Shown here: one piece after another, positions 28,513 to 41,685 of the stretch | Layout: each line of letters starts with the position of its first letter | How positions within the stretch are numbered: position 1 is the stretch's first letter | NCBI RefSeq assembly: GCF_028882255.1 | Contig: NZ_JARBUY010000004.1 | Span: forward strand, 570,328-634,327 | DNA: 64,000 nucleotides | From: Maribacter polysaccharolyticus | Lineage (GTDB): Bacteria > Bacteroidota > Bacteroidia > Flavobacteriales > Flavobacteriaceae | Reading direction: 5' to 3' | Translations under genes and position numbers: made by a program | Notes under the pieces: generated by a model | The model's input: only the letters and a program-made list of their open reading frames with translations | Told to the model about the DNA's origin: nothing | The model's database searches: none

Positions 28513-30411
28513 ATGAGCGACGCAATAAAACATGAATGTGGAATTTCGGTAATTCGTTTACTTAAACCGCTATCCTATTACAAAGAAAAATACGGTACGG
28601 CATTTTATGGGGTAAACAAAATGTACCTAATGATGGAGAAACAGCACAATCGGGGACAGGATGGTGCAGGTTTTGCGAGTATTAAATTGGATATGAACCC
28701 CGGGGTTCGCTATATGAGCCGGGTACGTTCTGCAGAACAACAGCCCATACAGGACATCTTTGACCAAATCAATAACCGTATAAACAAGGAATTTGCGGAA
28801 CATCCCGAATATAAAGAAGATGTAACCGCCCAGAAAAACAACATTCCCTATATCGGGGAAGTTTTATTGGGACATGTGCGATATGGTACATTTGGCAAGA
28901 ACAGTATTGAAAGTGTCCATCCATTCCTTAGACAGAATAACTGGATGCACCGTAACCTCATTGTCGCGGGTAATTTCAATATGACCAATGTAAATGAGCT
29001 CTTTGATAATCTGGTACAAATTGGACAGCACCCCAAGGAGATGGCCGATACGGTAACCGTTATGGAAAAGATAGGACATTTTCTTGATGATGCCGTGGCC
29101 AAATTATACAAGCAGATCAAAAAAGAAGGGTATAACAAAATGGAGGCTTCCCCTTTGATCGCCAAAAGATTGAAACTGACGAAGATCCTTCGAAAAGCAG
29201 CCAAGAACTGGGACGGTGGTTATGCCATGGCCGGAATGTTGGGCCATGGAGACGCTTTTGTCCTTAGGGATCCATCGGGAATCAGACCTGCCTATTATTA
29301 CAAGGATGATGAGGTCGTTGTGGTCGCTTCGGAAAGGCCTGCCATACAGACCGTTTTCAACGTGCCGTTCGAAGAAGTAAAGGAATTGGATCCAGGTCAT
29401 GCCATTATCGTAAAGAAAGATGGCACCTCAGGAATCAGTGAGATCTTGAAACCCAGGGAAAGAAAGGCCTGTTCCTTTGAACGTATTTATTTTTCGCGGG
29501 GAAGCGATAAGGAAATCTACCAAGAACGCAAGAACTTAGGAAAATTCCTTTTCCCCCAAATCCTAAAGGCCATTGACAATGATATTGAGCGCACCGTGTT
29601 CTCATACATCCCCAATACGGCGGAGACTTCATTTTTCGGCATGGTCAAAGAGGCCCAGAATTATTTGAACAAAAAGAAAGAGGAACAAATTTTATCCATC
29701 GGTTCCAATATCACCCAAAAAGAACTGCACGACATCTTAGGGGTCAGGCCCAGAATCGAAAAAGTCGCCATAAAGGATGCAAAATTAAGGACCTTTATCA
29801 CCCAAGATAGCAGTAGGGACGATTTGGTCGCCCATGTTTACGATATATCGTACGGTTCGGTGAATAAGGACGACAACCTTGTTATCATCGATGATAGTAT
29901 TGTACGTGGAACGACCCTTAAAAAAAGTATCCTGCGCATATTGGATCGTTTATCCCCTAAAAAGATAATCGTAGTCTCTTCGGCACCTCAGATACGCTAC
30001 CCGGATTGTTATGGAATAGATATGGCCAAATTGGAGGATTTCATCGCTTTCAAAGCGGCCTTGGCATTGCATAAAGACTACGATACCATGGATCAGGTCG
30101 AGGCCATCTACAAGAAGTGTGTAGCCCAAGTGAATTCCAAAGACAATGAAATAATCAATTATGTGAAGGAATTCTACGCGCCCTTTACCGCACATCAAAT
30201 TTCAGATAAAATAGGGGAACTATTGAGCCCTCCTGAGATAAAAGCCGAAGTCAAAATCATCTATCAAACCATTGAAAGCCTTCATAAGGCTTGCCCCCAA
30301 AACCTTGGGGATTGGTACTTTACAGGCAACTATCCTACAAATGGGGGAAACAAGGTAGTCAACAAGGCATTCATCAACTTTTACGAAGGTAAAAACGAAA
30401 GAGCTTATTAA
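28513..30411 (+). CDS. Amidophosphoribosyltransferase-like protein, long Bacteroidota form
   Basis: 632 residues, about 130 more than E. coli PurF. The Ntn glutaminase domain has a Cys at position 9 (HECGI), which would be N-terminal only after removal of an 8-residue leader, plus NRGQDGAGF and GHVRYGTFGKNS. The phosphoribosyltransferase domain has the PRPP loop VIIDDSIVRGTT (about 456-467). Extra segments lie around 90-110 and in the last 90 residues. It probably makes phosphoribosylamine or is a divergent paralogue; a classical purF may exist elsewhere in the genome. Confidence 0.85.
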   Translation: MSDAIKHECGISVIRLLKPLSYYKEKYGTAFYGVNKMYLMMEKQHNRGQDGAGFASIKLDMNPGVRYMSRVRSAEQQPIQDIFDQINNRINKEFAEHPEYKEDVTAQKNNIPYIGEVLLGHVRYGTFGKNSIESVHPFLRQNNWMHRNLIVAGNFNMTNVNELFDNLVQIGQHPKEMADTVTVMEKIGHFLDDAVAKLYKQIKKEGYNKMEASPLIAKRLKLTKILRKAAKNWDGGYAMAGMLGHGDAFVLRDPSGIRPAYYYKDDEVVVVASERPAIQTVFNVPFEEVKELDPGHAIIVKKDGTSGISEILKPRERKACSFERIYFSRGSDKEIYQERKNLGKFLFPQILKAIDNDIERTVFSYIPNTAETSFFGMVKEAQNYLNKKKEEQILSIGSNITQKELHDILGVRPRIEKVAIKDAKLRTFITQDSSRDDLVAHVYDISYGSVNKDDNLVIIDDSIVRGTTLKKSILRILDRLSPKKIIVVSSAPQIRYPDCYGIDMAKLEDFIAFKAALALHKDYDTMDQVEAIYKKCVAQVNSKDNEIINYVKEFYAPFTAHQISDKIGELLSPPEIKAEVKIIYQTIESLHKACPQNLGDWYFTGNYPTNGGNKVVNKAFINFYEGKNERAY

Positions 30412-30413
30412 TA

Positions 30414-30455
30414 TTTATCGATGAAATGCATCAGATTGTGCATTTCATCGATAAA
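30414..30455. terminator. Very long perfect hairpin behind the PurF-like gene
   Basis: Two perfect 17-bp arms (30414-30430 and 30439-30455; left arm TTTATCGATGAAATGCA) enclose an 8-nt loop, starting 3 bp after the stop codon. There is no strong T run behind it, so it may act as a 3' mRNA stabiliser or a weak terminator in either direction. Confidence 0.65.
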
Positions 30456-30514
30456 ATAGGTGTTTTAACGTCTTTTTACGCCAGAAGGAAGTCCACCCAC
30501 CTACTTTAGACCCG

Positions 30515-30585
30515 CCATAGCATAAGTAGGTTAAGTTCATGGTAAGATTTGGGGCAAAAAAGGTGGAGATTTCTCCACCTTTTTT
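30515..30585 (+). ncRNA. Candidate small RNA, array unit 1
   Basis: A -7-like box TACTTTAG (30502-30509) ends 5 nt before the core. The core begins CCATAGCATAAGTAGG and can fold into a hairpin: CCATAGC pairs with GTTCATGG with one bulged C, then TAA/TTA encloses loop GTAGG. A linker TAAGATTTGGGG follows, then a terminator stem GGTGGAG/CTCCACC and TTTTTT. A transcript of about 71 nt is inferred. It also has an extra possible pairing between ACCTACTT upstream and AAGTAGGT in the core. Confidence 0.75.
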
Positions 30586-30778
30586 ATTTCTACCCAATGC
30601 TTTCCGTTTATAAGCTTTATGAACTCCCCTTAAACCCCGTACGCCAGGTAGAGGTCATATGCCCCCTAACCCTTACGACACATTTTGCCCAACATCCCAT
30701 ACTTACACTTTACCGCTTTTATAGACGCTTCAACCAAGAATTTTCGAAGGTGCGAAATACCGACTTACATTCGTAGGA

Positions 30779-30847
30779 CCATAGCATAAGTAGGTTAAGT
30801 TCATGGTAAGATTTGGGGAAAAAGGTGGAACATTGTTCCACCTTTTT
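30779..30847 (+). ncRNA. Candidate small RNA, array unit 2
   Basis: Box TACATTCG (30766-30773), 5 nt spacer TAGGA, then a core identical to unit 1. The terminator stem reads GGTGGAAC/GTTCCACC, differing from unit 1 at paired positions so that pairing is kept. It ends in TTTTTATTTT. Inferred length about 69 nt. Confidence 0.77.
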
Positions 30848-31136
30848 ATTTTAAAATGCCTTACCCCGAAATTTCCCTCTCCGCCTTACCATTTTCGGAA
30901 TGTACGATCACTTCAACCCAATTAACGGGAAACCCCATCGGCAGCACCCTTATATGTAGAGTTACACTATACCTCTCGCTATTTATCACAGGACATTTTG
31001 CACTTTCACAAAGTAAACCATCTAGGAACATTGGATAATACCCATTTTCGCATAGGGATATTGCACTTTAACCATAGATTAGGGAGTTCATCTAAAACCT
31101 TTTATAACTAGCCGGTTACGCCTTATGTTCGTAGGA

Positions 31137-31205
31137 CCATAGCATAAGTAGGTTAAGTTCATGGTAAGATTTGGGGAAAAAGGTGGAACAATGTTCCACC
31201 TTTTT
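31137..31205 (+). ncRNA. Candidate small RNA, array unit 3
   Basis: Box TATGTTCG (31124-31131), 5 nt spacer TAGGA, core identical to units 1 and 2. Terminator stem GGTGGAAC/GTTCCACC with loop AAT (unit 2 has ATT), then TTTTTATTTT. Units 2 and 3 are the closest pair and also share the TTCGTAGGA segment upstream. Confidence 0.77.
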
Positions 31206-31341
31206 ATTTTAAAAATCCCTTCCCAATGACGGACCTTATCTTACCAAATACCACGCGAAATCCCCGTAAAGCGGATGAACGAAATCCAAAATTCATTAAA
31301 ATTCCTTTTTTATTTCCAACAAACCCAGTATTTTAGTCATG

Positions 31342-31411
31342 CCATAGCATAAGTAGGTTAAGTTTATGGTAAGATTTGGGACGAAAAGGGTGGAGACTTC
31401 TCCGCCCTTTT
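31342..31411 (+). ncRNA. Candidate small RNA, array unit 4
   Basis: Box TATTTTAG (31329-31336), 5 nt spacer TCATG. The core has one C to T change (GTTTATGG) and GGGA instead of GGGG after the linker. The terminator stem is GGGTGGAGA/TCTCCGCCC (one G-U pair), again changed with pairing kept, then TTTT. It converges with the superoxide dismutase terminator 13 bp further on. Confidence 0.72.
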
Positions 31412-31423
31412 CTATTTTTAGAC

Positions 31424-31478: not shown

Positions 31479-32087
31479 TTATTTATTCGCACTGTATAAC
31501 GCTGCGACCTTCTCCCAATTGATTACATTGAAAAACGCATTTATGTAATCAGGTCTTCTGTTTTGGTAATTTAAGTAATAAGCGTGTTCCCACACATCCA
31601 ATCCTAGAATAGGAAAGCCCTCACAGCCGGTACCGGGCATAAGGGGATTATCTTGGTTTGGAGTTGAACAAACTTCCACTTTACCTCCTTTGTGCACACA
31701 AAGCCATGCCCAACCCGAACCAAATCGAGTTCCTGCAGCCTTACTGAACGCTTCTTTAAACGCTTCAAACGAACCAAAAGCGTCCGTAATGGCCTTGGCC
31801 AGTTCGCCAGTAGGTTCCCCGCCTCCTTTAGGGGACATCACCTCCCAAAACAAGGAATGGTTATAAAAACCACCACCATTGTTCCGCACAGCGGCATTGC
31901 CCATATCCAAATCGGTCAAGATAGCCTCGATGGATTTTTTTTCCAAAGGGGTCCCGGCAATGGCATTATTCAGGTTGTTCGTATAGCCATTATGATGCTT
32001 AGTGTGGTGTATTTCCATGGTCCTGGCATCAATATGTGGTTCCAATGCATCGTATGCATAAGGTAATTTTGGTAATTCAAAAGCCAT
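31479..32087 (-). CDS. Superoxide dismutase, Fe/Mn family
   Basis: 202 residues from the ATG at 32087 ([20 protein letters not shown]); a more upstream Met would add 12 residues lying across the -7 box region. Metal ligands: His in EPHIDART (about 27), His in FYNHSLFWE (about 77), and Asp/His in [19 protein letters not shown] (about 162-166). No signal peptide, so cytoplasmic. Fe versus Mn cannot be decided. It is convergent with the small-RNA array. Confidence 0.97.

Positions 32088-41609: not shown

Positions 41610-41685
<76 letters not shown>

Follow-up and report, generated by a model that had tools for sequence, protein, structure and literature searches.

The FopS (GibS) RNAs of Bacteroides thetaiotaomicron (RF04319) are a group of 14 small RNAs (sRNAs) of 65-70 nt that block the start codons of susC mRNAs (PMC11697453). 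Binding of RbpB is one of the features of this group. In Flavobacterium psychrophilum, one study describes the Rfp RNAs as conserved flavobacterial sRNAs, among which Rfp18 tunes metalloprotease mRNAs (PMC9723704). The computational motif Flavo-1 is also widespread in Flavobacteriaceae. To our knowledge, very few sRNAs have been described in this family. Other bacteria carry tandem multi-copy sRNAs of the Qrr and LhrC type, in which several near-identical units have their own promoters, share a seed, and produce a dosage effect.

The locus studied here lies in a 64,000-nucleotide stretch of the Maribacter polysaccharolyticus genome (NZ_JARBUY010000004.1, positions 570,328 to 634,327), hereafter the window. 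Here a purF-like gene and a superoxide dismutase gene flank four units, each consisting of a TAnnTTNG box, a core, and a terminator. The array resembles the Qrr and LhrC type in having near-identical units with their own promoters, but its sequence and host phylum are unrelated. Its RNA is, like Flavo-1, widespread in Flavobacteriaceae and, like the Rfp RNAs, a conserved flavobacterial sRNA. Compared by description, Rfp18 has at least three stem-loops, the third of which pairs with protease mRNAs (PMC9723704), whereas the array RNA folds into a single hairpin followed by a terminator. FopS and the array RNA are both short, multi-copy, paralogous sRNAs with sigma-A promoters and a 3' terminator (PMC11697453). 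However, the FopS genes are scattered over 14 loci and begin with a single-stranded 5' seed followed by the terminator, whereas the array RNA belongs to a different family, occupies one fixed locus, and starts with a 5' hairpin, which every fold and the consensus show.

Organization of the purF-sodA array

The features of the locus are the following (window coordinates).

28513-30411, + strand: purF-like amidophosphoribosyltransferase gene, the constant upstream neighbour (synteny)
30414-30455, no strand: perfect 17-nt inverted repeat TTTATCGATGAAATGCA / TGCATTTCATCGATAAA upstream of unit 1, putative regulatory site
30502-30509, + strand: -7 box of unit 1, TACTTTAG (box census of 457 units)
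30514-30586, + strand: unit 1 small RNA with hairpin, linker, and terminator (30556-30585), predicted by folding and covariance model
30766-30773, + strand: -7 box of unit 2, TACATTCG (box census of 457 units)
30778-30848, + strand: unit 2 small RNA with terminator (30819-30847), predicted by folding and covariance model
31124-31131, + strand: -7 box of unit 3, TATGTTCG (box census of 457 units)
31136-31206, + strand: unit 3 small RNA with terminator (31177-31205), predicted by folding and covariance model
31329-31336, + strand: -7 box of unit 4, TATTTTAG, inside an upstream stretch of the CAATACCAGTAATTTAG type conserved between genera
31341-31413, + strand: predicted small RNA of unit 4, which has the TTTATGG core and GGGACG linker of the last-copy type, with terminator (31383-31412)
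31479-32087, - strand: Fe/Mn superoxide dismutase gene (sodA), the constant convergent downstream neighbour (synteny)

The core is a nearly invariant stretch of 40 nt that starts at a purine, with CCATAGCATAAGTAGGTTAAGTT[C/T]ATGGTAAGATTTGGG located 5 nt 3' of every box. The initial annotation had placed four boxes at 30502, 30766, 31124, and 31329, each ending 5 nt before the core, and this arrangement was confirmed, including the differences among the spacers; its 5-nt spacer corresponds to 4 nt plus the starting purine. Extending the census to 457 distinct units, we found the promoter box in 443, with 374 at a single exact spacing, ending 15 nt before AGTAGG, whereas control windows shifted along the sequence carried the box in only 14-26 of the 457 units. 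In 447 units CC is directly preceded by a purine (A or G), and conservation starts at that purine. Since the box ends 4 nt before this purine, it falls at -12 to -5, the same position at which the TAnnTTTG sigma-A box is reported in F. psychrophilum (PMC9723704). This geometry suggests that the units are separate genes of the sigma-A type.

The promoter region of the last unit (31320-31336, CAATACCAGTAATTTAG) and its equivalents in other genera show conservation extending far 5' of the -7 box, a property that is not shared by the other units.

Structure and covariation

All four units share one predicted fold, in which the single-stranded linker AAGAUUUGGGG joins a bulged hairpin, capped by the apical loop GUAGG, to a strong terminator. 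The folding z values are -3.7 to -4.4, and none of 200 shuffles folded equally well. Thus, the core hairpin with loop GTAGG proposed from the window alone could be recovered as part of a two-hairpin shape common to all four units. The paired changes that had been noticed in the terminator stems were also borne out, since 8 of the 11 pairs of this helix have changes on both sides among 42 sequences. The covariation score of the whole structure was 0.269, against 0.131 +/- 0.008 in shuffled alignments.

In this same close set of 42 sequences, the 5' hairpin shows no covariation by the count of two-sided changes, as the 3' arm and the loop do not vary and the 5' arm drifts; variants of the latter among the 457 distinct units include CCATAGCATA, CCATAACATA, and CCAGAACATA. 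Two strongly diverged members (L375 and L376) have lost the loop and changed the 5' arm, which by our reading can still pair with CAUGGU, and they retain AAGUUCAUGGUA and AUUUGGGG. The 3' part thus seems to be selected both as a linear sequence and as a pairing arm. A conserved peptide or coding frame is ruled out by the one-base indel that the core carries across the family (TAAGATTT or TAGATTT), together with the variable linkers and A-runs.

Distribution and synteny

A covariance model built from 42 units matched 345 of 395 sampled Flavobacteriaceae genomes at E<=0.01, representing 184 of 203 genera, and by our own tally of the table 332 of the 345 lie below E 1e-4. A 34-nt core pattern allowing up to 3 mismatches matched 28 of 119 relatives. 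In a public genome collection the core pattern was found in at least 119 contig stretches, and among the matches listed there are Maribacter, Zobellia, Cellulophaga, Robiginitalea, Eudoraea, Arenibacter, and Kordia. Outside the family, a class-wide sample yielded matches of about 27-40 bits, and those inspected were terminators in unrelated places, so that an extension beyond Flavobacteriaceae was dropped and the RNA is considered to belong to this family.

Synteny was counted in 131 distinct intergenic regions having both flanking genes. All the units in these purF-sod intergenic regions (341/341) lie on the purF strand in a single orientation, with one to six units per array. The unit types hold their order, the last copy being of the TTTATGG/GGGACG type in 68 of the 131 arrays. 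A few genomes also have copies away from the array, detected in some as second matches far from the first and also in the stretch L023. The initial annotation had regarded the units as dispersed paralogues in unrelated spacers, which proved to be wrong: the four share one intergenic region, that between purF and sodA, and the presence of every unit of the 131 arrays at this place indicates one ancestral tandem locus, orthologous across Flavobacteriaceae. A mobile or dispersed origin was rejected as well, given that neither plasmid records nor viral contigs contain the core and that the array copies are all syntenic.

The constant purF-sodA position in every array with both flanks might also be expected if the units acted exclusively in cis, as attenuators or terminators tied to read-through of purF or sodA rather than as independent sRNAs. 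We give this explanation hardly any weight, because almost all units are preceded by a separate promoter box at a fixed spacing, arrays reach six copies, some genomes carry copies elsewhere, and no conserved complement of the RNA was found in the leaders and start regions of sodA and purF.

Relationship to described RNA families

The initial annotation had called for the exclusion of Flavo-1 and other Rfam families. No Rfam 15 family matched the array at the gathering score, and Flavo-1 had no match in the window at that score, nor in the array at E values up to 10. At permissive thresholds the best scores in the array corresponded to STnc40, RmaA, and sraA, and these were rejected because they are driven by the terminator only. 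The sole Rfam match of the window at the gathering score is a tRNA gene (41611-41684).

In the literature covered, no such array is described and the core string appears in no relevant context. Two Flavobacterium RNA-seq studies list unnamed sRNA candidates in their supplements, and therefore the array RNA may have been detected earlier without a name (PMC9723704, PMC5395568). An unnamed Rfp RNA, for instance, could be the array RNA (PMC9723704).

The relationship to FopS deserves closer attention. The array core and FopS have UUCAUGGUA...AGAUUU in common, which in FopS pairs over start codons. When the consensus of FopS is aligned with the array core, UUCAUGGUA-n-AGAUUU is matched, with a score of 20.2 bits at unit 1. 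This alignment, added to the short, multi-copy, sigma-A-driven nature of both RNAs, could suggest that the array RNA is a diverged FopS homologue displaced to one locus. However, the score is far under the cut-off of 56 bits, other places in the source genome score above the array, and none of 60 genomes exceeded the cut-off with the FopS model, the 24.7 bits obtained in one of them (G042) being at the genome-wide noise level. The difference between the single-stranded 5' end of FopS and the 5' hairpin of the array RNA also argues against homology, which we consider very improbable.

The high-scoring matches of the FopS model outside Bacteroidaceae that we inspected (L377-L379 and L381) are mostly gene-start antisense sequences (ATGAAAAA) beside terminators. 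The Rfam model may thus pick up start regions, and a likeness in this motif is to be expected of any RNA complementary to start regions, which again speaks against common descent. By analogy, the array RNA may work like FopS, but it is not a member of the FopS family.

Taken together, comparison across genomes establishes the family, its structure, promoter, terminator, synteny, and upstream site (see below), and argues strongly that the RNA forms a real sRNA family, as yet without a name, which is nearly universal in Flavobacteriaceae and has a conserved locus. The earlier proposal of transcripts of about 70 nt is strongly favoured by the promoter position, the purine start, the terminator covariation, the conservation, and the lack of an Rfam or ORF explanation, with transcription itself being deduced from these signals.

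A conserved site upstream of the first unit

The TGCATTTCATCGATAAA site, which was absent from the initial annotation, is a new element. As an inverted repeat and as direct copies phased by 20 nt, it is present in 69 of the 131 purF-sodA intergenic regions, as compared with 2 of 131 shuffled ones. AGTAGG follows the start of the forward half-site at 85-89 nt in 82 cases and at 65-69 nt in 22. In the source genome, the copy at 30414-30455 is the only paired site within the 1.26 Mb examined. Phased repeats about two helical turns apart are typical of LytTR response regulators, and this site is probably a binding site for a response regulator, which we infer to be LytTR-like.

Search for targets

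In 1.2 Mb of the source genome, complements of the seed were not enriched at gene starts and were fewer than in most shuffled-flank controls. An anti-start-codon pattern searched in 346 genomes gave 30 matches, about twice the reversed-pattern control, mostly antisense inside genes.

The susC genes did not stand out either. Their start regions showed no significant preference, and the weak trend seen, with a z of about -2 at best, was not reproduced in three other genera. The SusC leaders of four Flavobacteriaceae genera (L387-L446, 50 nt before the start codon) share motifs of the ACTAAC/AACTTAA type. The most enriched 7-mer in SusC leaders is AACTTAA (15/59 versus 10/869 in other genes), which complements UUAAGUU of the array RNA. 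In three genomes of other families, which lack the RNA, it occurs in 1 of 29 SusC leaders, and AACCTAA-like strings are common there instead. Since the SusC motif extends as CTAACTTAAA without longer pairing, AACTTAA was not counted as evidence.

The strongest single prediction in the 1.2 Mb is a gene for a secreted protein of 111 aa whose C terminus carries a type IX-like sorting sequence; the leader of this gene (GTTGATCCCAAATCAATACC-ATG) is predicted to pair with the RNA at -24.8 kcal/mol. A second species of the genus encodes a protein 66% identical to it, with an identical leader (GTTGATCCCAAATCAATAC). Both this gene and the similar gene preceding it have sites resembling the upstream element of the sRNA. 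The candidate gene has the leader CCCAAATC; in the conserved leader GUUGAUCCCAAAUCAAUAC, a run of 8 nt (CCCAAAUC) matches the sRNA's invariant GAUUUGGG perfectly, and the upstream-element-like site is TGCATTTCATCGA. A conservation-filtered search over 136 ortholog pairs gave a best pair that was equalled in 1 of 60 shuffled seeds. The type IX gene ranked second, and 10 of the 60 shuffled seeds had a best pair at least as good, which means that this result alone does not reach significance. We therefore treat this small type IX-sorted gene as a candidate target, on the basis of the sequences of two genomes of one genus.

Outside the window, around 356050-357100 of G000:C16 in the source genome, two adjacent genes for small secreted proteins with type IX-like sorting sequences lie beside a PhoB-like regulator and have sites similar to the upstream element of the sRNA. 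The leader of the second, 18-19 nt long, is unchanged in another species of the genus.

Proposed function

The absence of an outstanding target class leads to consider that the RNA might instead be a protein-binding decoy or structural cofactor, bound by an RNA-binding protein, the polymerase, or the ribosome, made abundant by its many copies and having no antisense role. The invariance of about 30 contiguous nucleotides across the family, beyond the 7-10 nt that a typical seed needs, would fit this idea. Without being decisive, two observations point the other way: the single-stranded G-rich linker and the apical loop are conserved like the stem, and a multi-copy short RNA with a terminator end has the usual layout of pairing sRNAs. 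We consider the decoy unlikely, although deserving of consideration.

The array RNA is indeed laid out like a pairing sRNA encoded by several gene copies, and our preferred reading, with a probability of roughly 65%, is a sigma-A-transcribed small RNA that acts in trans by pairing, from tandem units kept for dosage. The first copy would probably be controlled by a DNA-binding regulator, presumably of the LytTR type, at the conserved TGCATTTCATCGATAAA sites. Each unit would yield a small RNA of about 70-72 nt, R-CCAUARCAUAAGUAGGUUAAGUUYAUGGUA(A)GAUUUGGGGC-A(n)-terminator, and gene dosage would be the reason why the tandem units between purF and sodA are maintained. In the pairing through which the RNA most likely acts in trans, the invariant AAGUAGGUUAAGUUYAUGGUA and the single-stranded GAUUUGGGG would bind mRNA leaders or start regions and, by analogy with FopS, block translation of the targets. 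The linker, already proposed as a natural pairing seed, is a plausible candidate for that role, since few parts of the RNA are as conserved.

A more specific proposal is a core Flavobacteriaceae circuit in which a LytTR-like response regulator drives the multi-copy sRNA and similar sites lie upstream of genes for small type IX-sorted surface proteins, one of them with the leader that carries the 8-nt match; we regard it as quite doubtful.

Flavobacteriaceae are major marine polysaccharide degraders. The near family-wide presence of the array at one place, together with about 30 bases identical in most of the family, implies that its function should be important and general, and the array offers a ready-made model for finding homologous arrays in genetically tractable strains. 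If the circuit were true, this RNA would tune the surface or secreted proteins of a bacterial family that is dominant in the sea.
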